Source: Actinomycetospora sp. NBRC 106375 (GTDB taxonomy: Bacteria > Actinomycetota > Actinomycetes > Mycobacteriales > Pseudonocardiaceae). Taken from it: DNA of 64,000 nt. The first letter of the stretch is position 1, and every line of letters begins with the position of its first letter. Both the position numbers and the translations under genes were made by a program. The stretch is taken from contig NZ_BSTS01000015.1 of NCBI RefSeq assembly GCF_030269665.1, positions 1-64,000 of the forward strand. Direction: 5' to 3'. Under the pieces are notes generated by a model. It was not told the DNA's origin. It searched no databases and saw nothing but the letters and a program-made list of their open reading frames with translations. Of the stretch, positions 35,274-50,401 are shown in pieces.

Positions 35274-35894
35274 TCACGCCGGGAGGATCGTCCCCGCGGG
35301 CTCGATCCCCTGGTGCAGCGGCCCCTCGTCGTTGACGGCGAGCAGCACCGGCACCGAGCCGCTCGTGTCGATCCGGCACACCGCGGCGTCGACGAGGAAC
35401 ATCCGCCAGGCGATGTCGATCCCGACACCGAGCGCCCAGCTGATCGCCGCCTTGATCGGCGAGACGTGGCTGACCACGACCACCTCGCCGGTCGCCGCGT
35501 CGGCCGCCAGGTCCGTGCAGGCCGCCGCGACGCGCGCCCGGACCGCGGCGAGCGACTCCCCGCCGGCGGGCACGTGCTCCGGGTCCGACCGCCACGCGCG
35601 CCAGGCGTCGCCGTCCAGCGCCGTCATCGGCTGGCCGTCGAGCTCGCCGTAGTCCATCTCCGTCCACCGCGCGTCGACCTCGACGTCGACGTCCGCCCCG
35701 AAGAGCGACGCGGTCTCGCGCGCGCGGGCGAGCGGGCTGGAGACGAGCCGGGTGGGCCGCGGCAGACCGGCGGCGAGCGCGCCGGCCTGCCGGCGCCCCG
35801 TCTCGGTGAGCGGCGGGTCGGACCGACCGCACATCACCCCGCGGGCGTTGGCCTCACTCTGACCGTGGCGGACGAGGGTGAGCACGTACGCCAC
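35274..35894 (-). CDS. Histidine phosphatase family protein (phosphoglycerate mutase-like)
   Basis: A 206-residue phosphatase. The RHG motif with catalytic His is in LTLVRHGQSEANARG near the N-terminus. A second conserved His is in VVVSHVSPIKAAISW, with Arg and Glu residues in SSPLARARETA and WTEMDYGELDG, as in the acid phosphatase/cobalamin-phosphatase subgroup. The start GTG at 35894 fits the fold; it lies within the last codons of the membrane-protein gene upstream, a 61-base overlap. The substrate is unknown. The position after a lipid-related membrane protein, methyltransferase and glycosyltransferase suggests a sugar- or lipid-phosphate intermediate. Confidence 0.85.
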   Translation of the reverse strand: MAYVLTLVRHGQSEANARGVMCGRSDPPLTETGRRQAGALAAGLPRPTRLVSSPLARARETASLFGADVDVEVDARWTEMDYGELDGQPMTALDGDAWRAWRSDPEHVPAGGESLAAVRARVAAACTDLAADAATGEVVVVSHVSPIKAAISWALGVGIDIAWRMFLVDAAVCRIDTSGSVPVLLAVNDEGPLHQGIEPAGTILPA

Positions 35895-36958
35895 GGTAAC
35901 GGCGCCAGCGAGACCCACCCGCGCGCATTCGGGCGACCCACGGCGTCCACGAGCAGGACGAGGGCGCCCGGCAAGCACGAGATCAGGGCCAGCACGCCGT
36001 AGACGACCGAGGTCGCGAGGCCCTGCCCCGGGTCGAGCCCCACGGCGGCGAACGCCACCGCGGCCGCGGCCTCCCGCGGGCCCCAGCCACCGACGGTCAG
36101 CGGCACCGACATCGCGAGCAGCGACACCGTGACCAGCGGCAACAGCTGCCCCAGCGGCGCCTCGACGCCGGCGACGCGGGCCGCGAGGACGAACAGCGCG
36201 AGCAGCCCGCCGAGCGCGATGAGCGAGAACAGCAGCACGGCGGGCGCGGTGCGCAGCCGCCCGAGACCCTCGCGCACGTCGCCGAGCGCGGCGACCACGG
36301 CGGTCCGCACGCGCGCCGCGCGGCGGGCTGTGGCGATCCACACGCCGGCGGCCACGAGCGCCAGGGCGACACCGCCGGCGACGAACCCGAGGCCCGGGCC
36401 GACCAGCGAGTGCAGCAGCGCCGGGCGGGCGAACAGCACCGCGAGGCCGACCGCGACCACGACGACCTGCCCGGCCACCCGCTCGATCACCACGGCGCGG
36501 GCGCCGCGGGCGTCGCCGGGGCGGTGGTGGCGCACGGCGCGGTGGACGTCGCCGAGGACGCCGGCGGGCAGCAGCGAGTTCAGCAGCGTCGCGCGGTAGG
36601 CGTCGGCCGTCGCGGCGCGCAGCGGGAGCGGGAGCCCGACACCGGCGGCGACGACGCACCAGCGGGCGGCGCCGGCGATGGTCGTGACGGCGCCGAGGGC
36701 GAGCGCCGCGGCGACGGTCAGCGGGGTGATGCCGCACAGGGCGTCGAGGACCCCGCCCGCGCCGAGGCGCGCGACGAGCAGGGCCGGCAGGCCCAGACCG
36801 ACGACGAGACGGACCACACCGCCGAGGGTGACGCGTCGGCGGGCGTCGTGGGAGGGCTTTGCGGAAGAGACCGGGTCGTTCTCGGGGCTGGTCCGGGGCC
36901 CGGGGACGGCGGGTGCGGTGGTCGGGGGCACGGGGAGCTCGGTCGCGGGGAGCGGCAA
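35834..36958 (-). CDS. Lysylphosphatidylglycerol synthase-type transmembrane protein (UPF0104/AglD-like)
   Basis: A 374-residue polytopic protein with about 8 membrane helices and the family motifs NSLLPAGVLGDVHRAVRHH, AVVIERVAGQVVVVAVG and the later VPLTVGGWGPREAAA. This family includes the flippase half of MprF and glycosyl/isoprenoid-related membrane proteins such as AglD; the exact role differs between members. The frame opens at TTG 36958 with a Pro-rich cytoplasmic tail; the true start could be closer to the first helix. It overlaps the phosphatase gene. It probably handles a lipid-linked intermediate with its neighbours. Confidence 0.82.
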   Translation of the reverse strand: MPLPATELPVPPTTAPAVPGPRTSPENDPVSSAKPSHDARRRVTLGGVVRLVVGLGLPALLVARLGAGGVLDALCGITPLTVAAALALGAVTTIAGAARWCVVAAGVGLPLPLRAATADAYRATLLNSLLPAGVLGDVHRAVRHHRPGDARGARAVVIERVAGQVVVVAVGLAVLFARPALLHSLVGPGLGFVAGGVALALVAAGVWIATARRAARVRTAVVAALGDVREGLGRLRTAPAVLLFSLIALGGLLALFVLAARVAGVEAPLGQLLPLVTVSLLAMSVPLTVGGWGPREAAAAVAFAAVGLDPGQGLATSVVYGVLALISCLPGALVLLVDAVGRPNARGWVSLAPLPWRTCSPSSATVRVRPTPAG

Positions 36959-37034: not shown

Positions 37035-37973
37035 TCAGGGCATCGCGAGGAGGTCGAGGTGGCCGACGGTGACGCGCAGCCGGCCTTCCTCGGCGGCCTC
37101 CAGGCGGCGGGCGAGGTAGGCGTCGGCGTGCCGCGCGAGGTCGGGGTCCTGCGCGGCGGCCGCCGCCACCCAGCCGTGGAGCCAGGCGACGACGAGGTCG
37201 ACGTCGTCGAGCCCGAGGTGCCAGGGGCTCGACCGGGAGCGGACGTGGGCGCCGTGGCGGGCGAAGGCGTCCTCCGCGGCCGTCGCGGCGTCCGGGCCGA
37301 GCAGGCGGCGCCCGCCGACCACCCGCTGCTGGTGGGCGTCGAACGCGGCCGCGACGGGGAGATCGCGGGGCTCGGCCGGCTCGATCCGGACCTGCCCGAC
37401 CACCGTGAGCGTCAGCAGCGCGGCGCAGCCGGCTCCGACGCACGCGGCGGCGAGCCCGTCGACCTCCTCGGCGGTGAGGACGTCGAGCAGCGCGGAGGCG
37501 GTCACGAGGTCGTGGCCGGCGAGGTCCTCGGCGCGCAGCGTGGTGATGTCGACCCGGCGGACCTCGCCGGTGACCGGGGAGCCGTCGCGGGCCGCCGTCG
37601 GGAGCCGGTCGTGGGCCTCGGCGAGCAGCGCGGGGTCGCGGTCGGTGAGCACCCAGTGCTGGGGGCCCGGCATCCGCGGCGCCAGCCAGCGCGCCATCGA
37701 GCCCGTGCCGGCACCCAGGTCGAGGATGCGGCCCGGGGCGGGGTGCCCGGCCCGGAGGTCCTCGACGAGGTCGATCGCCCGGGCCTCGGCGTCGGCCTTC
37801 TCGCGCAGGGCGAGCCAGTCACTCGCCGCCGGGGCCCCGGGGAGGGCGTGCTCCGGCGTGCGGGGGCGGGGTGCGGTGGGCTCGCTGCTCAGCCCGGGGT
37901 CGGCGGGGTGTGCAGGTCCGCCAGCACCTGCTGCACCCGTCGCGACGTCTGCGTCCACGCGGCAAGCGTGCAT
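37035..37973 (-). CDS. SAM-dependent methyltransferase (class I)
   Basis: A protein of about 280-312 residues. Motif I is RILDLGAGTGSMARWLA; motif II-like WVLTDRDP and the later HDLVTASALLDVLT follow, typical of class I Rossmann methyltransferases. A His-rich acceptor segment (RSRSSPWHLGLDD) is near the C-terminus. The only ATG is at 37973, which would overlap the glycosyltransferase gene by 85 bases. The true start may be an unusual codon near 37892, right after that gene's stop. Short tandem GGTCAGGG repeats follow its stop (37012-37040). The substrate is probably a glycolipid or sugar intermediate, by context. Confidence 0.8.
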   Translation of the reverse strand: MHACRVDADVATGAAGAGGPAHPADPGLSSEPTAPRPRTPEHALPGAPAASDWLALREKADAEARAIDLVEDLRAGHPAPGRILDLGAGTGSMARWLAPRMPGPQHWVLTDRDPALLAEAHDRLPTAARDGSPVTGEVRRVDITTLRAEDLAGHDLVTASALLDVLTAEEVDGLAAACVGAGCAALLTLTVVGQVRIEPAEPRDLPVAAAFDAHQQRVVGGRRLLGPDAATAAEDAFARHGAHVRSRSSPWHLGLDDVDLVVAWLHGWVAAAAAQDPDLARHADAYLARRLEAAEEGRLRVTVGHLDLLAMP

Positions 37974-38923
37974 CGTGTGGATCTCGCTGAGAGACGCTGC
38001 CCAAAACGGTGCAGGGGTTCGTCGAACCAGCGGCGCAGTGTTACGACGAGCGCGGGAACGTTCTCAGCGGGGACTAAGGTCCCGCCCGCACCGAGGGTCT
38101 CCGGAAGACCACCGACCGCACTCGCCACGACGGGGATGCCCCGCGCGCGGGCCTCGGCCACCACCATGCCGTACGTCTCCACCCGCGAGGGCGCGACGAG
38201 CAGGTCGGCGTGTCGCCAGGTCTCGTCGAGGTCGACGCCCGCGCGGGGGCCGGGGATACGGAGGCGATCGCCGAGATCGTGGCGGGCGATCGTCGCGCGC
38301 AGGTCGGCGACGAAGTCCGGGGCGCGGCCGACGGGGCCGACGAGGTCGCAGGTCCAGGGGTGGTCGCGCAGCTCGGCGAGGGCGGCGACGAGGAGGTCCT
38401 GGCCCTTGGTCGGCGTCACGGCGCCGAGGCAGAGCAGCCGGTGCGCGCCGTCGGTGCCGGGAGCGAGCGGGGCGGGGTCGACGCCGGGGGTGGCGACGGC
38501 GACGTCGGCGAGGCCGTGGCGCTCCCGCAGGCGGCGGGCGGCCCAGGGGCTGGTGGCGACCACGGCGCCGGCGGCGCGCAGGACGTCCCCCTCCCCGGCG
38601 TCGAGGTCGGGCGACTCCTCCCCCAGCGGCAGGTGCACGAGCACGGCGAGGGGGCGCCGGGCGGCGTGGGGGATGACGACGTCCGGCACCCCGCACGCCA
38701 CGAGCCCGTCGAGGAGCACGGGCCCGTCGCCGTCGGGCAGGACGTCGTCCAGGGCCCGTCGTGCCGTGGCGCCGGGCCGCGGCCACGTCCCCTCGACCTG
38801 GGCATCGTGGACCGCCCGGCCGTCCTCCCGCAGCCCGGCGATCACCCGCGCGTCGTAGACGTCGCCGCCGCTGACCAGCGCCGGGTCGGCGACCGGCCTC
38901 ACGAACGTCAGCGCGCGCACCAC
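37889..38923 (-). CDS. Glycosyltransferase family 4
   Basis: A 344-residue GT-B enzyme. The acceptor domain holds SGGDVYDARVIAGL. The donor domain starts at about residue 165 with LLCLGAVTPTKGQDLLVAAL and has the GT4 signature SRVETYGMVVAEARARGIPVVAS with its two Glu residues. It starts with an ATG/GTG near 38923, 24 bases from the divergent DinB gene. With the methyltransferase, membrane protein and phosphatase genes downstream it forms a leftward operon, presumably building a modified glycolipid. Confidence 0.87.
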   Translation of the reverse strand: MVRALTFVRPVADPALVSGGDVYDARVIAGLREDGRAVHDAQVEGTWPRPGATARRALDDVLPDGDGPVLLDGLVACGVPDVVIPHAARRPLAVLVHLPLGEESPDLDAGEGDVLRAAGAVVATSPWAARRLRERHGLADVAVATPGVDPAPLAPGTDGAHRLLCLGAVTPTKGQDLLVAALAELRDHPWTCDLVGPVGRAPDFVADLRATIARHDLGDRLRIPGPRAGVDLDETWRHADLLVAPSRVETYGMVVAEARARGIPVVASAVGGLPETLGAGGTLVPAENVPALVVTLRRWFDEPLHRFGQRLSARSTRCTLAAWTQTSRRVQQVLADLHTPPTPG

Positions 38924-40084: not shown

Positions 40085-41344
40085 ATGATCGCCCGGTCGG
40101 CGGGCGAGCGTCCCGCCCGTCCGTGGGTAGCGTCGCCGGACGTGACCGCGTCGGGGCCGCCACGTCTGCTCGTGGCGTCCCGGGTCGTGCCGGGCCCGCA
40201 CGAGCCCGCGCTGGCCCCGGGCGCGGTGGTGGTCGATGCCGACGTGATCACCGCGGTCGGCCCGCCGGAGGTCCTCGCTCACCGGTACCCGCATGCCGAG
40301 CGCGTCGACCTCCTCGGCGCCACCCTCGTGCCCGGCCTGGTGAACGCGCACGTCCACCTGGCCTTCGAGCCCGAGCGCGACCCCGTCGCCCCGCCCGCCG
40401 ACCGGCCCACCGCCGACCTCGCCGCGGCCGTCGCCCGCAACGCGCGCCGCCTGCTCGACGAGGGCGTCACCACGGCCCGCGACCTCGGCGACCGGGACGG
40501 GGTCGTGGCGGCGTGGCGGACGTCGGGGGCGCTCGGCCCGCGGGTGCTGACCGCCGGCGCGCCGATCACCACCCCGGGCGGGCACTGCTGGTTCCTGGGC
40601 GGGGAGGTGTACGGCCCGGGCGACCTGCGGCAGGCGGTGGCCGAGCGCGCCGCCGCGGGCGTCGACTGGATCAAGGTCATGGCCGGCGGCGGGATGCTCA
40701 CCCCGACCTCGCCGCGGCCGTGGGAGACCCAGTTCTCCGACGACGCCCTCGCCGTGGTGGTCGACGCCGCCCGGGAGGCGGGGCTGCCCGTCGCCGCCCA
40801 CGCCCACGGCACCGCGACGATGGCGGCCTGCGCCCGCGCCGGCGTCGACACCATCGAGCACGGCGGCTGGCTCAGCGGCCCCGGTGCCTCGCCCGGCGCG
40901 GCGCCCGCCACCGATCCCCGGCCGGAGGTGGCGGACGCGATCGCCGCCGCCGGCGCGGTGCTGGTGCCGACGCGGGCGCGAGGCTGGCGGAGCTGGCCGC
41001 CCGAGGGCGACCTCGACGGGCTGCTCGCCCGGCTGGCGTGGAACGCCTCCCGCGGCATCCGGATGGTCGTCGGCACCGACGCGGGCGCCGGACCGGGAGT
41101 CTTCGACGACGTCGTCGACACCCTGACGCTCTACCGCGCGGCGGGGTGGTCGGACGCCGCGGTGCTGGCGATGGCGACCACCGAGGCGGCGGCGGTGCTC
41201 GGGCTCGGCGACCGCGTGGGGCGCCTGGCGCCCGGCTACGCGGCCGACCTGCTCGCCGTCGACGGCGACCCCACCCGCGACGTCGAGGCCCTGCGCCGCC
41301 TGCGCCTCGTCGTCGCCGCCGGCCGCGACCACGTCCCTACGTGA
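40085..41344 (+). CDS. Amidohydrolase-superfamily metal-dependent hydrolase (imidazolonepropionase/prolidase-like)
   Basis: A 419-residue TIM-barrel hydrolase. Metal-ligand motifs are in order: HVH in VPGLVNAHVHLAF, a Lys suited to carbamylation in VDWIKVMAGGGM, HAH in LPVAAHAHG, HGG in DTIEHGGW and the catalytic Asp in VVGTDAGAG. This is the binuclear pattern of the Xaa-Pro/organophosphate subgroup. A composite beta-sandwich from both ends (LLVASRVVPG; GYAADLLAVDGDP) is normal for the family. The start could also be GTG 40142. Its stop is at the left edge of palindrome 2. The substrate is not identifiable. Confidence 0.87.
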   Translation: MIARSAGERPARPWVASPDVTASGPPRLLVASRVVPGPHEPALAPGAVVVDADVITAVGPPEVLAHRYPHAERVDLLGATLVPGLVNAHVHLAFEPERDPVAPPADRPTADLAAAVARNARRLLDEGVTTARDLGDRDGVVAAWRTSGALGPRVLTAGAPITTPGGHCWFLGGEVYGPGDLRQAVAERAAAGVDWIKVMAGGGMLTPTSPRPWETQFSDDALAVVVDAAREAGLPVAAHAHGTATMAACARAGVDTIEHGGWLSGPGASPGAAPATDPRPEVADAIAAAGAVLVPTRARGWRSWPPEGDLDGLLARLAWNASRGIRMVVGTDAGAGPGVFDDVVDTLTLYRAAGWSDAAVLAMATTEAAAVLGLGDRVGRLAPGYAADLLAVDGDPTRDVEALRRLRLVVAAGRDHVPT

Positions 41345-41387: not shown

Positions 41388-43649
41388 TCAGCCGGGGGGA
41401 CCGGGCGGCGGGGTGAGGCGGCCGGACGAGGTCGTCACGGTGACGGTCTGACCCTCGACGCCCCCGCCCAGTGGGTTCTCGCCGATCACCGTGCCCGCGG
41501 GCGCGCGGCTGTCGACCGAGTTCGTGGCCACGACGAACCCCGCCTGCTGCAGCTCCTGGCTCGCCTGGGCGCCCGGATCGCCGATCACCGCGGGGATGTC
41601 GGTCAGCCGCCCGCCGGTGACGAACCGCTGGTCGGGCGTGGGCAGGGGCTGGACGGGGCTCGCCCCGAGGATCGGCGTCATCGCCCGGTACCAGGTCTGC
41701 GCCGGGGTCGTGCCGCCGAACAGGTTGCCCGTCCCGCACGTCGTCGGCGGGCTGCCGGTGCAGATCGGGCGCGGTGACGACGAGTCGTCGAAGGTGATCG
41801 CCGCCGCAGACAGGGCCGGCGTCGTGGCGACGAACGCGCCCGACTCCGAGGTCTGCGTGGTGCCGGTCTTGGCGGCGGTCGGGCGGTTCCAGCCGGCGGT
41901 GGTCGCGGCGGCGGCCGAGGTGCCGCCGGGCTGGTCGTCCTTGGACAGGCCGGTCATCTCGGTGTCGGCGAGCGGGCCCGGCACCGCCTGCTCGCACACG
42001 GCCTCGTTCACCGGCACCGGAGCCCCGGCCGCGTCGGTCACCGAGGAGACGGGGCTGGGCGGGCACCAGACGCCGTGGCTCGCGAGCGTCGCCCCGACGT
42101 TGGCGAGCTCCAGCGAGCTCGTCGGCGCGACGCCGAGCGTGAACGACGCCTGGTTCTGCGCCTTCACCGTGTCGGCGATCGACGGCTGGCCCGGGCCGGG
42201 TGACTCGGCCAGCGAGCGCATCCCCAGCCGCACCGCCATGTCGACGACGGGCGCGATGCCGGTCGTCTCCTCGAGCTTGACGAACGCCGTGTTCGGCGAC
42301 TGCGCGAGCGCGTCCTGCAGCGAGAGCTGCGGCGGGTAGTCGCCGTCGTTCGACACCACGAAGCCCGGCGTCAGCGGCGAGGCGTAGCCGTTGGCGGGCA
42401 CCGGGATGATGTTCGAGATGCCGCCGCCCTGCGCAAGGTACGCGGACGACGTGAAGATCTTGTAGACCGACCCGGCGCCGAGGTTCTCCGGCGTGCCGGG
42501 CAGGTCGTAGGTGGTCTGGAGCTGCGAGGCGTCGAGCCCGTAGCCCCGGTTGGCGGCCATCGCCGTGACGTGGTGGGAGCTCGCTCCCGGCGACACGATC
42601 GACAGGACGTCCGCGACGTGCGGCTGGGTGGGGGGCACCTCGCCGTCGACCGCGGCCTTCGCCTGGTCCATCGCGGCGCGGTTCATCGTGGTGTGCACCG
42701 TGTAGCCGCCGCGGCGCAGCTCGTCGGTGGAGATCCCGCTGCGGGCGAGGTAGTCGAGCACGTAGGAGCAGAAGAACCCGGCGTCGCCGGCGCCGATGCA
42801 GCCCTCGGTGAGCCCGTGCAGGGCCGGGTCGACGCCGAGCGGCGCGGCGGTGGCCTGCGCGGCCTGGGCCGGGGTGATGTCGCCCTGCTCGGCCATCTGC
42901 TGGATCACGACGTTGCGCCGGCCCGTCGCGGCGGCGGGGTGGCGCACCGGGTCGTACTGCGCGGGGCTCTGCACCATCCCGGCCAACATCGCCGCCTGCG
43001 GGACGGTCAGCTTGTCGGCGGTGGTGTCGAAGTACGTGCGGGCCGCGGCCTGGACACCGAACGCCTGGTTCCCGAACGAGACGACGTTGAGGTACCAGGT
43101 GAGGATCTGGTCCTTCGAGACGCTGTGGTCGAGCTGCTCGGCGACCTCGGCCTCGCGGAACTTCCGCCCGAGGTTCGGGGCGGTCGCGCGCAGCTGCTCC
43201 GCCGGCGTCTGCGCGGCGACGTACTCGTCGTAGTTCTTGACGTACTGCTCGGTGAGGGTCGACGCGCCCTGGGTCGACCCGCCGCTCGAGTTGTTCACCA
43301 GCGCCCGCAGCACCCCGCGCGCGTCGAGCCCGGACTCGCCGAAGAACCGCCGGTCCTCGATCGCGACGATGGCCGCCTTCATGGCGAGCGAGATCTGGTT
43401 CGACGCCACGGACTGGCGGTTCTGGTCGTAGAGGTACGCGATCGGCGCGCCGGCGTCGTCGGTGATCGTCGTGACCGACGGCATGTCGCCGGTCAGCACC
43501 CCGGGCTGTGTCGTCTCCACCCCGCCCACGGCCGACGCGGCGAGCTGCCCGGCGCCCCCGACGAGGGGATAGACCAGACCGGCGACCAGCAGGCCGCCGA
43601 TCACCGCGATCGCGAGCATGCGCGCCCCGAGCGTCACCGATCTCCGCAC
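41388..43649 (-). CDS. ponA: Bifunctional class A penicillin-binding protein (PBP1) with PASTA domain
   Basis: About 753 residues. A membrane anchor (8-30) is followed by the GT51 glycosyltransferase domain with catalytic Glu in VAIEDRRFFGESGLD and the TLTEQYVKN stretch. The transpeptidase domain has the SxxK nucleophile motif as SVYK, SxN as SPN (DALAQSPNTAF) and KTG as KTGTT. A C-terminal PASTA-like domain (TDIPAVIGDPGAQASQELQQ) and a Gly/Pro tail follow. It makes and cross-links peptidoglycan at the outer face of the membrane. The start is taken as GTG 43649; a longer frame to 44030 has no membrane-protein character. It is divergent from the L,D-transpeptidase gene. Confidence 0.92.
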   Translation of the reverse strand: MRRSVTLGARMLAIAVIGGLLVAGLVYPLVGGAGQLAASAVGGVETTQPGVLTGDMPSVTTITDDAGAPIAYLYDQNRQSVASNQISLAMKAAIVAIEDRRFFGESGLDARGVLRALVNNSSGGSTQGASTLTEQYVKNYDEYVAAQTPAEQLRATAPNLGRKFREAEVAEQLDHSVSKDQILTWYLNVVSFGNQAFGVQAAARTYFDTTADKLTVPQAAMLAGMVQSPAQYDPVRHPAAATGRRNVVIQQMAEQGDITPAQAAQATAAPLGVDPALHGLTEGCIGAGDAGFFCSYVLDYLARSGISTDELRRGGYTVHTTMNRAAMDQAKAAVDGEVPPTQPHVADVLSIVSPGASSHHVTAMAANRGYGLDASQLQTTYDLPGTPENLGAGSVYKIFTSSAYLAQGGGISNIIPVPANGYASPLTPGFVVSNDGDYPPQLSLQDALAQSPNTAFVKLEETTGIAPVVDMAVRLGMRSLAESPGPGQPSIADTVKAQNQASFTLGVAPTSSLELANVGATLASHGVWCPPSPVSSVTDAAGAPVPVNEAVCEQAVPGPLADTEMTGLSKDDQPGGTSAAAATTAGWNRPTAAKTGTTQTSESGAFVATTPALSAAAITFDDSSSPRPICTGSPPTTCGTGNLFGGTTPAQTWYRAMTPILGASPVQPLPTPDQRFVTGGRLTDIPAVIGDPGAQASQELQQAGFVVATNSVDSRAPAGTVIGENPLGGGVEGQTVTVTTSSGRLTPPPGPPG

Positions 43650-43912
43650 GGACGCCGATGATGCGCCTGTCCGGATCGGTCCGCCGTGAGCGGGTGACCT
43701 GCAAAAACGCGCAGATCGGACGTCATGGGCGCAGTCCGTCGCAAATCCCCTGCGAGATCCTCGTGACAGCAACCCCGGCGCCTCCCGCGTCCCCGCCGGG
43801 CAGCGCCCGCCCAGCGCCCGCCCCCCGTCCCGGCGACGGCGGGGTTGCGTGCGACCGTGCCGGGGAACGCGTTTGCACACCGCGTCGACCCCGACCGACG
43901 AGGAGGCACGCC

Positions 43913-44461
43913 ATGGTGGGACGTCACCGTCGCTCCCCTGACACCCGGACGTTCCGTCGCACCACGCTCGCCCCGCTCGGCATGGCCTCCGTGGCCGTGC
44001 TGAGCGCCGCGCCGTTCGCGAACGCCGCACCCGCCCCGCAGCAGGCCCAGCCCGCCCAGCCGTCAGCGCATCAGGCCCAGCCCGGCGGTGTCCTCAGCCC
44101 CGACGATCCGCCGTGCTCGGACCGCGCCGACATCTGCGTCGACCTCAGCGAGCACCACGCCTGGCTCATGAACGACGGCGAGGCCACGGGCGACCCGATG
44201 TCGATCACGTCGGGCACCCCGGACGACCCCACGCCGACGGGCGACTTCACGGTGAACCGCAAGGAGCGCCACCACGTCAGCAAGGAGAGCGGCCGGGACG
44301 TCCCGATGCCCTACTCGCTCTTCTTCGACCAGGAGGGCCGGGCGTTCCACACGGGTGACACGGCCCGGAACTCCAACGGCTGCATCCACCTCGACCAGGA
44401 CGACGCCCGCACGGTGTTCAACGCCCTGCAGGAGGGCAGCCGGGTCGAGATCCGGCGTTAG
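43913..44461 (+). CDS. Secreted L,D-transpeptidase (YkuD family)
   Basis: A 182-residue exported enzyme. A Sec-type signal peptide ([15 protein letters not shown], cleavage near residue 39) is followed by a Gln/Pro/Ala-rich spacer and the YkuD domain with H146-x7-S154-N-G-C157-I-H (catalytic Cys157; the usual SHGC reads SNGC). It should form 3-3 peptidoglycan cross-links or act as a wall hydrolase. A perfect AGGAGG at 43901-43906 precedes the ATG. It is divergent from the PBP1 gene across a 263-base region that must hold both promoters. It overlaps the PTPS-like gene's 3' end by 4 bases. Confidence 0.88.
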
Positions 44462-44868
44462 GCGAGCGTCAGCTCGTAGGACGCCGACGCCACGTGCGAC
44501 TCGTGCAGCGTCACCGTGATGCCGGCGAGCCCGCCTGCGTGCGGGCCGAGCCGTCCGTCGCGGACCCGCTCGGCCAGGCGGCGCGCGATCACCTGGGCGA
44601 GGAACTCCGTCGTGGTGTTCACGCCGGCGAACTCGGGGTGCTCGTCGAGGTTCGTGTAGGTCAGGTCGGCCAGGGCGTCGTGGAGCTGCTCGGTGGCGAG
44701 CCCGATGTCGACGACGATGTTGTCGGCGTCGAGCTCGCCACGCCGGAACGTCGCGTCGACGACGAACGTGGCGCCGTGCAGCGCCCGCGCCGGTCCGAAG
44801 ACCTCGCCACGGAAGCTGTGGGCGATCATGATGTGGTCGCGGACGGTGACGGCGAACATGCCCGCCAC
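44458..44868 (-). CDS. 6-pyruvoyltetrahydropterin/6-carboxytetrahydropterin synthase homologue with degenerate active site
   Basis: A 136-residue T-fold protein of the PTPS/QueD superfamily ([50 protein letters not shown]). The key residues are changed. The HGH zinc motif reads HGA, the catalytic Cys four to five residues before it is missing, and the LDH catalytic His region reads LTY. It probably does not make queuosine or pterin precursors and may act on another substrate. Similar degenerate forms occur near sugar-transfer and dehydrogenase genes in actinobacteria, as here (MDR dehydrogenase at 46788, GT4 at 37889). It starts 14 bases from element 3. Confidence 0.75.
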
Positions 44869-46787: not shown

Positions 46788-47753
46788 TCAGTAGTCCACG
46801 CGTACCCCGAGGCCCGGGCGCTCGCCGGACGCGAGGGCGGGCAGCACGGCCGGGAGGTCGGCGAAGGCGCAGCTGTCGCTGATCAGGGCGTCGAAGCGCG
46901 GGTCGGCGAGCAGGCGCAGGGCCAGGCGCAGGCGGTCGGTCGTGCTCCACCGGGCGCGGCGGGCCGGGGCGACGCGGCCGACCTGGGTGGCGCGCAGGGT
47001 CAGGCGCCGGGAGTGGAAGGCCTCGCCGAGCGGCACGCGCGGCGCCCGGTCGCCGAACCACGACATCTCGACGACCTCGCCCTCGTCGCCGAGCAGCTCC
47101 AGCGACCGGGCGAGCCCGGCCTCGGTCGTCGAGGCGTGCAGCACGAGGTCGCACTCGCCGGTCGCCGCGTCGGGGGTGGCGAACCCGACGCCGAGCGCCT
47201 CGGCCACCGCGGCGCGCGACGGGTCGACGTCGACCAGCTCCACGCGCACACCCGGCATCGTCGCGAGCACCGCGGCCACCGAGGCGCCGACCATCCCCGC
47301 GCCGACGACCGCGATCCGGTCGCCGACGCGCGGCGCGGCGTCCCAGAGGGCGTTGACCGCGGTCTCGACCGTGCCGGCCAGCACCGCGCGCGCCGCCGGG
47401 ACGTCGACCGGGACGTCGACGGCCATGGACGACGGGACCACGAACCGGTCCTGGTGCGGGTGCAGGCTGAACACCGTCCGCCCGGCTCCGGGGCCGGACT
47501 CGACCTCCCCGACCGCGAGGTACCCGTAGATCACGGGACCGGGGAAGTCGCCGACCTGGAACGGCGCGCGCATGAGGTCGTACTGGCTCGGCGGGACCTC
47601 GCCCCGGAACACCAACGTCTCGGTGCCCCGGCTCACCAGGGAGTGCGACGTGCGCACGACGACGTCGTCGGGACCCGGCTCCGGGAGCGGGACGTCGACG
47701 ATTCCTGCCCGACCGGGTGATTCGACCCGGAACGCCTGGGCCGTCTCGGTCAC
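46788..47753 (-). CDS. Zinc-free MDR-superfamily dehydrogenase
   Basis: A 321-residue medium-chain dehydrogenase/reductase. The N-terminal GroES-like domain (VVVRTSHSLVSRGTE, FPGPVIYGYLAVGEV) lacks the Cys and His ligands of zinc alcohol dehydrogenases. The Rossmann motif is IAVVGAGMVGASVAAVL, followed by VELVDVDPSRAAVAEALGVGFA. Its subgroup resembles the dehydrogenases associated with PTPS-like genes in actinobacteria (from memory). The start GTG at 47753 has GGAGGGTGGG just upstream. It is divergent from the CDP-alcohol phosphotransferase/sulfatase gene, 40 bases away, so they probably share a control region. The substrate may be a sugar or polyol derivative. Confidence 0.82.
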   Translation of the reverse strand: MTETAQAFRVESPGRAGIVDVPLPEPGPDDVVVRTSHSLVSRGTETLVFRGEVPPSQYDLMRAPFQVGDFPGPVIYGYLAVGEVESGPGAGRTVFSLHPHQDRFVVPSSMAVDVPVDVPAARAVLAGTVETAVNALWDAAPRVGDRIAVVGAGMVGASVAAVLATMPGVRVELVDVDPSRAAVAEALGVGFATPDAATGECDLVLHASTTEAGLARSLELLGDEGEVVEMSWFGDRAPRVPLGEAFHSRRLTLRATQVGRVAPARRARWSTTDRLRLALRLLADPRFDALISDSCAFADLPAVLPALASGERPGLGVRVDY

Positions 47754-47793
47754 GGACCCACCCTCCTCACTCGGCGACGATCAGCGGGCGGCC

Positions 47794-50121
47794 ATGCTGG
47801 CAGGTGTGCGACGCCCCGCCCCGATCCTGACCGCCGAGCTCGCCGGCGGCGCGGTGGCGAGCGCGGGGCTGCTCGGCGTGCTCGTCGAGGGCGCCGGGCT
47901 CGGGCCGTTCGGTCTGGTGGTGGGCGCCGCGGCCGCCGCGACGCTGGTCGTGGTCCTCCTCGGGGCGGGGGTCGACGCGCTGGGTCCCGCGGGGCGCGTG
48001 ACGCTGCTGCGCGCCGTGCTCGTCGTCGGGGTCACCGCACTGGTCGCCGACCCCGTCTCGACCCCCGCGCTGGTGGCGCTGGCGGCGGTCGCGCTCGCGC
48101 TCGACGGGGTCGACGGCGCGGTCGCCCGGCGCCGGAACGTCGCCTCGGCGTTCGGGGCGCGCTTCGACATGGAGCTCGACGCGTTCCTGCTCCTGGTGCT
48201 GTCGCTGCACGTCGCGGGGCAGCTCGGGTCGTGGGTGCTGCTCATCGGGCTCGCGCGCTACCTCTTCGTCGCCGCGGGCGTCGTGCTGCCGTGGCTGCAG
48301 GGCGAGCTGACGCCGCTGCGCTCGGGCAAGGTCGTCGCCGCGGCGCAGGGTGTCGTCCTCGTGGTCGCGGCGTCGCAGCTGCTGCCGGTCGTGGTCGCGA
48401 CCGTGCTCGTGGCGGCGGCCCTCGCCGCGCTGGCCTGGTCGTTCGGCCGCGACGTCGTCCGGTTGTGGCGCACGGCCGACACGCACCCCGTGCGCATCCG
48501 GCGCGGGCTGGCCGGCGTGCTCACGCTGCTCGCGGGCGCGCTGGTGCTCCTGGGCCTGCTCATGCCCGGCGACATCGCGCGCCTCGTGCCGCCGTCGGCG
48601 CTGCGCGTGCCGTTCGAGGTGCTGGTCGCGCTCGTGGTCGCGGCGCTGGTGCCCGTGTGGCCCCGGCGGGTGCTCGCGTGGGCGGCCGGGCTCGTGCTCG
48701 GCACCCTGCTGGTGCTGACGCTGTTCGACCTCGGCTTCTCGGTCGCCATCGCGCGCCCGTTCGACCCCGCGCGCGACGCGGCCCTGCTCGGCAACGCCTA
48801 CGACTTCGTCGCCGAGACCTCCGGCCCGGCGGTCGGGACCGTCGTGGCGGTGGTCGTCGCCCTGCTCGGGGTCGGGCTCGTCGTGGGGACGGGCGCCGCG
48901 GTGGCCCGCCTCGCGCGCGTCGCCGCCGCCCACCGGTCCGGGGCGCTTCGACTGGCCGCCGTGCTGGCCGTCGCGTGGTTCGTGGCGTGGACGCTGTCGG
49001 TGCAGCTGGTGCCGGGCGTTCCCGTCGCCTCCCGCGACACCTCGATCCGGGCCGTCGACCGCGCCGTCGAGATCGACGCCGGCGTGCGCGACCAGCAGGC
49101 CTTCGAGCGGGAGGCGTCCGTCGACGCCTACCGCGGCGTCCCGCCGGACCGGCTGCTCACCGCGCTGCGCGGCCGCGACGTGGTCATCGCCGTCGTCGAG
49201 AGCTACGGCGTGGCCGCGCTCGACGACCCCGGCCTGTCCGGACCCGTCCGCTCCGCGATGGCGCAGGGCCAGCAACGGCTCGACGCCGCGGGCTACGGCG
49301 CGCGCACCGGCCTGCTGACCTCGCCCGTCGCCGGCGGCGGCAGCTGGCTCGCGCACGCGACGATGTTCTCCGGGCTGTGGATCGACGGCGAGCAGCGGCA
49401 CACCGACCTCGTCTCCTCGGACCGCCTCACGCTGACCCGCGCGTTCCAGGAGGGCGGCTGGCGCACCGTCACCGTCCAGCCCGGGACGACGGGGCCCTGG
49501 CCGGAGGCGGCGTTCTTCGGCCTCGACCGCTCCTACACCCACGACGACCTGGGCTACCGCGGCCCGCGGTTCAGCTGGTCGCCGATGCCCGACCAGTACG
49601 CGCTGTCGGCGTTCGACCGCCTCGAGCCCCGCGGCCCCGGCACCCCGCCGACCATGGCCGAGCTCGTCCTGACCTCGAGCCACGGACCGTGGGCCCCGCT
49701 GCCCCGGACCGTCCCGTGGGACCAGGTCGGCGACGGCAGCGTGTTCGGCCCCGAGGAGCCGCAGCACTCGTTCCAGTCGATCTTCACGACGCCCGCGCCA
49801 CAGGTCCGCGACGACTACCGCCGCAGCATCGAGTACACGCTCTCGACGCTCTACGACTGGGTCGGGCGCCAGGCGGCCGAGGACCCGGCCCGCGCGCCCG
49901 TGCTCGTCGTCTTCGGCGACCACCAGGCCTCGCCCGCGGTCACCGGGCCGACGACCGACCGCAACATCCCGGTCTCGGTGGTCAGCCGCGACCCCGCCGT
50001 GCTCGACCGGATCGCCTCGTGGGGCTGGTCGCCGGGGCTCGTCCCGGCGCCGAACGCGCCCGTGTGGCCGATGAGCGCCTTCCGCGACCGGTTCCTCGAC
50101 GCCTACGGGCCGCAGCCGTAA
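47794..50121 (+). CDS. Fusion of CDP-alcohol phosphatidyltransferase and LtaS-like sulfatase domains
   Basis: A 775-residue membrane protein. The first part has several helices and the complete CDP-alcohol phosphotransferase signature D-G-x2-A-R-x8-G-x3-D-x3-D (D107-G108...A111-R112...G121...D125...D129). A central run of about six more helices leads to a C-terminal extracytoplasmic alkaline-phosphatase-type domain: VVIAVVESYGV (first metal Asp/Glu region), GGGSWLAHATMFSGLW (nucleophile region), VLVVFGDHQ (metal ligands). One chain thus seems able to make a phospholipid and to transfer or cleave a phosphoester outside the membrane. The start is ATG 47794 or GTG 47806. The product is unknown; phosphoglycerol- or polyol-phosphate-decorated lipid is a reasonable guess. 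Confidence 0.83.
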   Translation: MLAGVRRPAPILTAELAGGAVASAGLLGVLVEGAGLGPFGLVVGAAAAATLVVVLLGAGVDALGPAGRVTLLRAVLVVGVTALVADPVSTPALVALAAVALALDGVDGAVARRRNVASAFGARFDMELDAFLLLVLSLHVAGQLGSWVLLIGLARYLFVAAGVVLPWLQGELTPLRSGKVVAAAQGVVLVVAASQLLPVVVATVLVAAALAALAWSFGRDVVRLWRTADTHPVRIRRGLAGVLTLLAGALVLLGLLMPGDIARLVPPSALRVPFEVLVALVVAALVPVWPRRVLAWAAGLVLGTLLVLTLFDLGFSVAIARPFDPARDAALLGNAYDFVAETSGPAVGTVVAVVVALLGVGLVVGTGAAVARLARVAAAHRSGALRLAAVLAVAWFVAWTLSVQLVPGVPVASRDTSIRAVDRAVEIDAGVRDQQAFEREASVDAYRGVPPDRLLTALRGRDVVIAVVESYGVAALDDPGLSGPVRSAMAQGQQRLDAAGYGARTGLLTSPVAGGGSWLAHATMFSGLWIDGEQRHTDLVSSDRLTLTRAFQEGGWRTVTVQPGTTGPWPEAAFFGLDRSYTHDDLGYRGPRFSWSPMPDQYALSAFDRLEPRGPGTPPTMAELVLTSSHGPWAPLPRTVPWDQVGDGSVFGPEEPQHSFQSIFTTPAPQVRDDYRRSIEYTLSTLYDWVGRQAAEDPARAPVLVVFGDHQASPAVTGPTTDRNIPVSVVSRDPAVLDRIASWGWSPGLVPAPNAPVWPMSAFRDRFLDAYGPQP

Positions 50122-50122
50122 C

Positions 50123-50401
50123 TCAGTCGTCGATCTCCTCGGTCGCGAACCGCCCGGACGCGTAGCTGATGATCGTGCCCTTCTCGGCCGTCGAGAGGAG
50201 CCGGGCGAGGGCGTCGCGGCGCTCCGACGCGTCGTCCTCGTGGTCGACGCGGCCGGTGACGTCGATGTTGTCGTGGCGGTGGGTCTCGACCGTGACCATG
50301 AACCCGCCGTCGGGGTTGTGCGGCAGGGTCTTGACCGCGACCACCTCCGAGGCGCGGTACCAGTCACCGTCGGCGGCGCGGATCCAGCTGGGCTTGGCCA
50401 T
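50123..50401 (-). CDS. Small protein of unknown function
   Basis: A 92-residue protein with a compact beta-rich start (WIRAADGDWYRASEVVAVKT, GGFMVTVETHRHDNIDVTG) and an acidic, helical end (SERRDALARLLSTAEKG). It resembles the 75-residue protein at 52933 in layout (a short strand pair around a V/A-rich segment, an R/D-rich helix). No membrane segment. It is convergent with the fusion gene, with their stops 1 base apart. Coding status is supported by base bias and position; function unknown. Confidence 0.65.
   Translation of the reverse strand: MAKPSWIRAADGDWYRASEVVAVKTLPHNPDGGFMVTVETHRHDNIDVTGRVDHEDDASERRDALARLLSTAEKGTIISYASGRFATEEIDD

Follow-up and report, generated by a model that had tools for sequence, protein, structure and literature searches.

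The window analysed here is a 64,000-nucleotide stretch of DNA from Actinomycetospora sp. NBRC 106375 (contig NZ_BSTS01000015.1, positions 1 to 64,000). An open reading frame (ORF) on its forward strand, running from an ATG at 47794 to a TAA that ends at 50121, encodes a membrane protein of 775 residues in which a CDP-alcohol phosphotransferase (CDP-AP) domain and an extracytoplasmic domain of the LtaS kind share one chain. An in-frame ATG further upstream, at 47572, is a less fitting start, as a gene beginning there would overlap the divergent neighbour; the start at 47794 is matched in position by the ATG of a relative (L021, beginning MLA) in the alignment. An antisense ORF at 47767-50367 was taken for a high-GC frame and not for a gene. 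The protein and its parts are laid out as follows.

47794..50121, forward strand: predicted bifunctional CDP-AP/LtaS-like membrane protein, 775 residues (ORF, PF01066, relatives, AlphaFold)
47821..47961, forward strand: two extra N-terminal transmembrane helices, residues 10-56 (AlphaFold and hydropathy)
47983..48474, forward strand: six-helix CDP-AP domain, residues 64-227 (PF01066; half folded alone, PgsA 7drj at Z 15.2)
48103..48180, forward strand: CDP-AP signature, residues 104-129 (invariant in 34/34 aligned sequences)
48490..48993, forward strand: LtaS/EptA-type membrane anchor of ~5 helices, residues 233-400 (model, hydropathy, full-length alignment with MCR-1/EptA)
48994..50118, forward strand: predicted extracytoplasmic alkaline-phosphatase-fold domain, residues 401-775 (profile, PF00884 in relatives, fold matches)
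49198..49200, forward strand: metal ligand E469 in VVESYG (38/38 aligned relatives)
49342..49344, forward strand: proposed nucleophile S517 in GGGSWLAH (38/38; assigned by conservation and spacing)
49681..49683, forward strand: H630 in SSHGPW, equivalent of His-422 of Listeria LtaS (38/38)
49918..49923, forward strand: metal ligands D709-H710 in GDHQ (38/38)

An AlphaFold model of the whole protein, built with 57 aligned sequences, had a mean pLDDT of 93.1 and a pTM of 0.78. It separates the CDP-AP domain (64-227), the anchor (233-400) and the outer domain (401-775), and so supplies the boundaries that the original prediction, a note made from the sequence letters, had left to structure prediction. 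The model holds about 13 helices, namely the two extra N-terminal ones, six of the CDP-AP domain and ~5 of the LtaS type. Charges and hydropathy predict that the N-terminus, the CDP-AP signature and the linker (residues 218-234) lie inside and that residues 401-775 lie outside. The fusion that the original prediction had claimed is confirmed by the 775-residue ORF, the PF01066 match, the fold matches and the relatives. Chance or artefact as the source of the fusion was ruled out because a full-length fused copy recurs in 16 of the 18 searched genomes of the genus, the window's own included, and at 30 of 80 loci. Locus counts here and below cover the best 80 of at least 566 relatives from a scan of genome contigs, and their fractions lean towards near relatives. 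The bolder claim, that one protein makes a phospholipid inside and acts on its headgroup outside, is partly supported: two catalytic domains that appear complete are predicted to lie on opposite sides of the membrane.

The CDP-AP half matches PF01066 over residues 69-211 (E 5.2e-11; 43.6 bits vs a cut-off of 22). Its signature, D104xxD107G108xxA111R112-x8-G121xxxD125xxxD129, had been described as full, and it is complete and invariant in 34/34 aligned sequences. R155 and Y156 are invariant in the same 34, K179 is kept in 33/34 and Q185 in 32/34. Folded alone, this half gave a pLDDT of 94.0 and the six-helix membrane fold of the CDP-alcohol phosphotransferase superfamily. Fold searches were run against the PDB, where VIA-align found PgsA as the nearest solved structure (7drj; Z 15.2, rmsd 2.8, 163 residues), followed by PIP synthase (5d92, Z 11.9) and others at Z 10.3 or below. 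With Foldseek, no hit for this half fell below E 0.001, the top ones being PSS (0.072) and PgsA (0.094). The PgsA encoded in the same genome, itself named by TIGR00560 with a score above the cut-off, has Arg, Lys and Gln at the positions aligned with R155, K179 and Q185. We take these positions to be pocket residues of PgsA; a literature search for PgsA pocket residues returned nothing. The alignment makes a polyol phosphate a more probable acceptor of the CDP-AP than a neutral amine. CDP-AP domains fused to a second domain have precedents in AF2299 and IPCT-DIPPS, and 4o6m and 4mnd are among the fold matches. The partner domains of those proteins are cytosolic and of the nucleotidyltransferase type, whereas the partner here is predicted to be extracytoplasmic and of the phosphotransferase type.

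Pfam and NCBIfam scans gave no match to the outer half of the window protein itself (PF00884 none at E 0.01), and 25 of 38 aligned relatives match PF00884 Sulfatase, with a best E of 4.2e-11. The best solved folds over residues 433-775 are LtaP (4uop; Z 22.4, rmsd 4.0, 278 residues) and LtaS (2w5q, Z 22.1), which tie, and the phosphoglycerol transferase GacH (5u9z) follows at Z 21.4. These matches and the D709-H710 pair bear out the alkaline-phosphatase fold with GDH metal ligands that had been proposed for this half. The alignments of full-length MCR-1 and EptA begin at residues 237 and 239 and run to 775, anchor included (EptA/MCR matches 9nww, Z 20.1, and 5fgn, Z 19.8). The outer domain of EptA/MCR is disulfide-bonded, whereas the window protein has no Cys in its 775 residues and so none of these disulfides; it differs further in its proposed Ser nucleophile and in its neighbours. 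The anchor of LtaS consists of five helices. With LtaS and LtaP the protein shares a membrane anchor, the outer fold, a Glu-Asp-His metal site and the Trp and His phosphate contacts.

E469, S517, H521, W569, H630, W633, D709 and H710 are each invariant in 38/38. The metal site, whose incompleteness the original prediction had named as a finding that would speak against it, appears complete (E469, D709, H710) as judged from conservation, alignment, spacing and fold. According to passages of PMC4192460, the metal ligands of Listeria LtaS are Glu-263, Asp-481 and His-482, and a second glycerol phosphate (GroP) site is formed by Ser-486, Asn-488 and His-489. The metal ligands are kept here, and so are Trp-360 and His-422 of the residues given there; the equivalences come from a weak alignment (E 0.76) and spacing rather than from superposed coordinates. 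The same profile alignment, of LtaS-like type against LtaP, pairs the LtaP Thr with column 512. This column is variable (T 28, V 5, I 4, M 1 of 38; Val in the window protein) and S517 is invariant, for which reason S517 is proposed as the nucleophile, a Ser where LtaS has Thr. Its spacing was judged against what we take to be the motifs of MCR and LtaS.

The second GroP site, Ser-x-Asn-His after GDH, is missing from the 38 relatives, with Asn in 0/38, His in 0/38 and Ser in 6/38. Together with the CDP-AP fusion and the Ser in place of Thr, this sets the protein apart from LtaS. In LtaP, missing residues of this site have been tied to its failure to make polymer (passages of PMC4192460). An LtaS polymerase was ruled out on the missing site and the Ser nucleophile; in other words, the outer half is, as far as its sequence tells, not a lipoteichoic acid (LTA) polymerase, and the absent site fits a single transfer, which appears more likely than polymerisation.

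Could the outer domain do something other than transfer? Its fold also includes sulfatases and phosphonate monoester hydrolases, which come later in the match lists, and PF00884 Sulfatase is the family matched by its relatives. It might therefore be a hydrolase that removes the phospho-headgroup or a sulfate from the lipid made inside. This is rather improbable, because both the anchor and the nearest solved folds point to phospho-alcohol transferases, and a protein with no Cys has no Cys-type sulfatase signature. PbgA/YejM has the same fold (entries so titled match at Z 18.6-19.0), and a non-catalytic sensor or scaffold as in PbgA/YejM is conceivable. It is highly improbable given that the metal and nucleophile positions are all invariant (38/38).

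Relatives show the same two partners in several arrangements. The two exceptions within the genus are a genome with the halves side by side (G015) and one, 83% complete, with a CDP-AP half only (G004). Four genomes of the genus (G005, G006, G008, G009) carry an extra separate CDP-AP half, ~55% identical, beside the fused gene. At 30 of the 80 loci the halves are fused; at 33 they are split on the same strand and at 7 on opposite strands, and the remaining 10 hold just the outer half, with the CDP-AP half encoded elsewhere in all ten genomes (10/10). On a Paracoccus plasmid the CDP-AP and outer-half genes overlap by 4 bases, and at one locus (L072) the CDP-AP frame overlaps on the opposite strand. 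The fused state changes 6 times in a quick tree built from 81 rows of the outer half (SH-aLRT support only), and at least 5 of the changes are forced by starred branches. Three loci (L067, L069, L071) were kept as split; their overlapping frames might hide frameshifts, and the fusion changes would be fewer if these are errors. One clade of 27 rows, nearly all from Pseudomonadota, is split throughout. Thus, the same two partners have been joined or parted several times. The repeated fusion and splitting is good evidence, at the level of gene arrangement, that one lipid would be made inside and spent outside.

The fused protein travels with a cassette of further genes, which was found by clustering neighbours (reduced gene set) and by Pfam scans of single members. 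It includes a protein of the 6-pyruvoyltetrahydropterin synthase (PTPS) fold, an oxidoreductase resembling medium-chain dehydrogenases/reductases (MDR) and alcohol dehydrogenases (ADH), and a family 4 glycosyltransferase (GT4). Five members lie in the window within 15 kb, interspersed with cell-wall genes.

46788..47753, reverse strand: MDR/ADH-like oxidoreductase, divergent neighbour (Pfam; family present at 53/53 loci with PTPS)
44458..44868, reverse strand: PTPS-fold protein, homologue of SCO6650 (PF01242, 4.2e-21; PDB 3d7j, E 1.3e-58)
37889..38923, reverse strand: cassette GT4 glycosyltransferase (cassette clustering/Pfam)
37035..37973, reverse strand: cassette S-adenosylmethionine-dependent (SAM) methyltransferase (cassette clustering/Pfam)
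35834..36958, reverse strand: cassette LPG_synthase_TM (flippase-like) membrane protein (cassette clustering/Pfam)

Some of the 80 loci end at contig ends, and two (L025 and L030) show the ADH in part only. PTPS was found at 53, ADH at 53, GT4 at 54, LPG_synthase_TM at 49, RibD_C at 45, the methyltransferase at 35, GTP cyclohydrolase II (GCH II) at 33, an FkbM methyltransferase at 20, a cytochrome b561-like protein at 11 and creatininase at 10. Loci with PTPS have the ADH in 53 of 53 cases and GT4 in 52. In all six genomes with outer-half-only loci that were searched for PTPS (G394, G401-G405), it lies ~1.0-1.4 kb from the CDP-AP half on one contig. The third zinc histidine of QueD/PTPS lies, we presume, in HGH; at this position 34/34 clustered members from the 53 PTPS loci have Ala (HGAT), which indicates that the cassette PTPS is not a standard QueD/PTPS. 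The zinc motif GHE is missing in 36 of 37 clustered ADHs.

The closest known relative of the set is the SCO6650-SCO6655 region of Streptomyces coelicolor, which reportedly holds a PTPS homologue and a GTP cyclohydrolase IIB (work of the Bandarian group). The window PTPS is a close homologue of SCO6650 (3d7j), and a Streptomyces cassette (L046) has a GCH II of the Met type. The Met switch is presumably that of SCO6655, a GTP cyclohydrolase IIB that makes formamidopyrimidine (FAPy). Among aligned cassette GCH II sequences the switch residue is Met in 1/26 (L046), Tyr in 23/26 and His in 2/26; three RibD_C-cluster proteins without the EGRG motif were dropped from this alignment, and two sequences of the window's own genome (L103, L104) were left out of the count. 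With Met in one sequence only, most cassette GCH II look ordinary, and the idea that they are GTP cyclohydrolases IIB was rejected. The Met GCH II of Streptomyces lavendofoliae (L046:19786) stands beside a creatininase. A creatininase-type formamidase acts in riboflavin synthesis (passages of PMC9478397). The window holds no cassette-type GCH II or RibD_C. In the rest of its genome the best RibD_C among four loci (of 17 matches) scored 176.7 bits vs a member minimum of 259.1, and both GCH II copies (2 of 2) scored 290.7 and 280.2 bits vs 295.9. No clear dedicated copy of either was thus found in this genome.

Co-occurrence ties the CDP-AP half to PTPS beyond single loci. Among 60 genomes of the family, PTPS and relatives of the fused protein each occur in 30, and these are the same 30, all with the CDP-AP half (raw counts, kinship ignored); the outer half is present in 27 of them. 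Among 296 genomes of the phylum, strong matches to the fused protein and to PTPS fall in the same 9, with the outer half listed in 8 (kinship again ignored). The phylum cut-offs (E at most 2.2e-21 for the fused protein and 1.6e-36 for PTPS) were chosen after viewing the lists, with at most three candidates scored per genome. Next in line below them are G053 (PTPS 8.4e-25, no fused-protein match) and G260 (fused protein 1.9e-8, no PTPS). In a direct check, PTPS was found in 16/22 genomes or records and the ADH in 15/20 genomes.

What would such a system make? Our explanation, held tentatively and as a whole judged to fall just short of even, is that the protein has a dedicated phospholipid of its own, made inside, whose phospho-headgroup is moved once to an envelope acceptor. 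The CDP-AP, with its complete motif, PgsA-like fold and cytosolic active site, would join a phospho-alcohol to CDP-diacylglycerol. The lipid would then reach the outer leaflet. There, at a site of the LtaS/LtaP/EptA type, Ser517 would attack the lipid phosphate, releasing diacylglycerol and holding the phospho-alcohol covalently, and the Ser-linked phospho-alcohol would be passed on in a single transfer. Its acceptor is likely a glycoside or glycolipid that the cassette GT4 and methyltransferase would build and the LPG_synthase_TM protein would move. The PTPS/ADH branch, often with GCH II and RibD_C, would in most of the genomes analysed supply a pyrimidine- or pterin-like part to the headgroup or the acceptor. 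Fusion would couple the supply of the lipid to its use. A polyol phosphate is our first guess for the headgroup, and a pterin- or pyrimidine-linked lipid is the boldest. The cassette proteins, which go beyond the original prediction (PTPS, ADH, GT4, methyltransferase, LPG_synthase_TM, GCH II and RibD_C), indicate that a larger envelope product may be formed, with the lipid as one of its components.

A number of findings weigh against this explanation. R155 and K179 also occur in a ClsA-type enzyme of the same genome, so these residues are not specific to PgsA. In a sequence-profile comparison of the CDP-AP half, PgsA comes after cholinephosphotransferase and PssA. The fused protein also fails TIGR00560, the pgsA equivalog model (16.6 bits vs a cut-off of 109.1). 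Because of this failure, and because the Arg and Lys recur in the ClsA-type enzyme, the half is classed from sequence and model as PgsA-like and not as PgsA, from which it differs also in its two extra N-terminal helices; a classical PgsA identity was ruled out by the NCBIfam cut-off. In the outer half, two of the four phosphate-contact residues of LtaS are replaced (His-353, Met in 25/38; Arg-362, Glu in 32/38), a further difference from LtaS and LtaP and a sign that the headgroup may differ from that of LtaS.

The arrangement of the halves speaks on both sides. Separate halves in unrelated contexts had been named beforehand as evidence against a joint route, and such an arrangement was found only in part. 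Both halves lie in one fetched stretch at 40 of the 50 non-fused loci, but not at the other 10. Among the 27 family genomes with both halves, 5 have them fused and 15 within 10 kb, but 7 have them further apart, and in 6/6 genomes of a second family (f18) that encode both, they lie at a great distance or on separate contigs. Three of the 30 family genomes that keep CDP-AP and PTPS (G339, G351, G366) have no outer-half match at E 1e-15, and none was listed for G048, where 3 of 8 candidates were scored. The LtaS-like half is thus dispensable.

The same holds for the PTPS/ADH branch. Of the 22 genomes or records, 6 gave no PTPS match: Devosia crocina, four Kribbella and a Paracoccus record that covers a plasmid and not a whole genome. 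The ADH was not found in 5 of the 20 genomes (the same four Kribbella and Devosia crocina). The Kribbella genomes (L027, L032, L033, L089), with a fused gene, and Devosia crocina (L094), with both halves, keep CDP-AP, the LtaS-like half and LPG_synthase_TM. These exceptions and the three family genomes without an outer half indicate that CDP-AP with the outer domain, and CDP-AP with PTPS, are each possible alone. In another reading, the unit that the CDP-AP attaches to lipid is the product of the PTPS pathway itself, a pterin or ribityl-pyrimidine phosphate, which the outer domain would then carry over to the envelope. The shared 30 of 60 family genomes favour this reading, as do the shared 9 of 296 at cut-offs set after viewing the lists. 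The chemistry of GCH II and RibD_C, established for riboflavin synthesis, gives a ribityl polyol phosphate and would do so here. Against it, both halves persist in Kribbella and Devosia, whose genomes gave no PTPS or ADH match, and no cassette-type RibD_C was found in the window or, when the best 4 of 17 RibD_C matches were compared, elsewhere in its genome; we regard this reading as unlikely.

The same parts could also be read as a variant LTA primase, in which ordinary phosphatidylglycerol(phosphate) is the product of the CDP-AP and the outer domain attaches glycerol phosphate to a glycolipid anchor made by GT4. The PgsA-like fold, LtaP among the best matches and the GT4 and LPG_synthase_TM neighbours agree with this. 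So do passages of PMC3196553, by which LTA is reported in actinomycetes (Streptomyces) and actinobacterial genomes sequenced by 2011 have no clear LtaS orthologues. We consider it quite unlikely, since the genome already has a PgsA, two of the four residues of the LtaS phosphate pocket are replaced and the tight linkage to PTPS and ADH goes unexplained. Relatives of the system are, moreover, present in many Alphaproteobacteria, a group not known, to our knowledge, for LTA.

If the tentative reading of a dedicated lipid with a single headgroup transfer is extended, the system could be a widespread envelope pathway of Actinomycetota and Alphaproteobacteria that puts a GTP-derived pyrimidine or pterin unit on a lipid headgroup or acceptor, with a single chain that makes and transfers the lipid. 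This wider view is doubtful. Both domains are of known kinds, and their union is the part without a description: in the literature searched, none was found for the fusion or for the cassette, and no paper links the SCO6650-SCO6655 region to a CDP-AP/LtaS-like fusion. The fused protein travels with a set that resembles vitamin- and pterin-making enzymes and is so far unexplained. The orphan SCO6650-type PTPS cassette thereby gains a membrane end point, its product being probably tied to lipid or envelope, and for soil actinomycetes as well as rhizobia an orphan enzyme set becomes a lipid pathway open to testing.

Other genes accompany the cassette. In the window, the GT4 is separated from a penicillin-binding protein by an amidohydrolase-family gene (40085-41344, forward strand; PF01979, 1.3e-41). 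Two proteins at 41388-44461, a YkuD L,D-transpeptidase and this penicillin-binding protein (class A, PASTA domain), are encoded between the GT4 and PTPS genes of the cassette. Near the pair, 11 of the 40 split loci (L062-L100, L101; one member checked, PF01292) carry a cytochrome b561-like gene, which might serve electron transfer, and in several loci an ABC transporter, which might serve uptake, follows the outer half.

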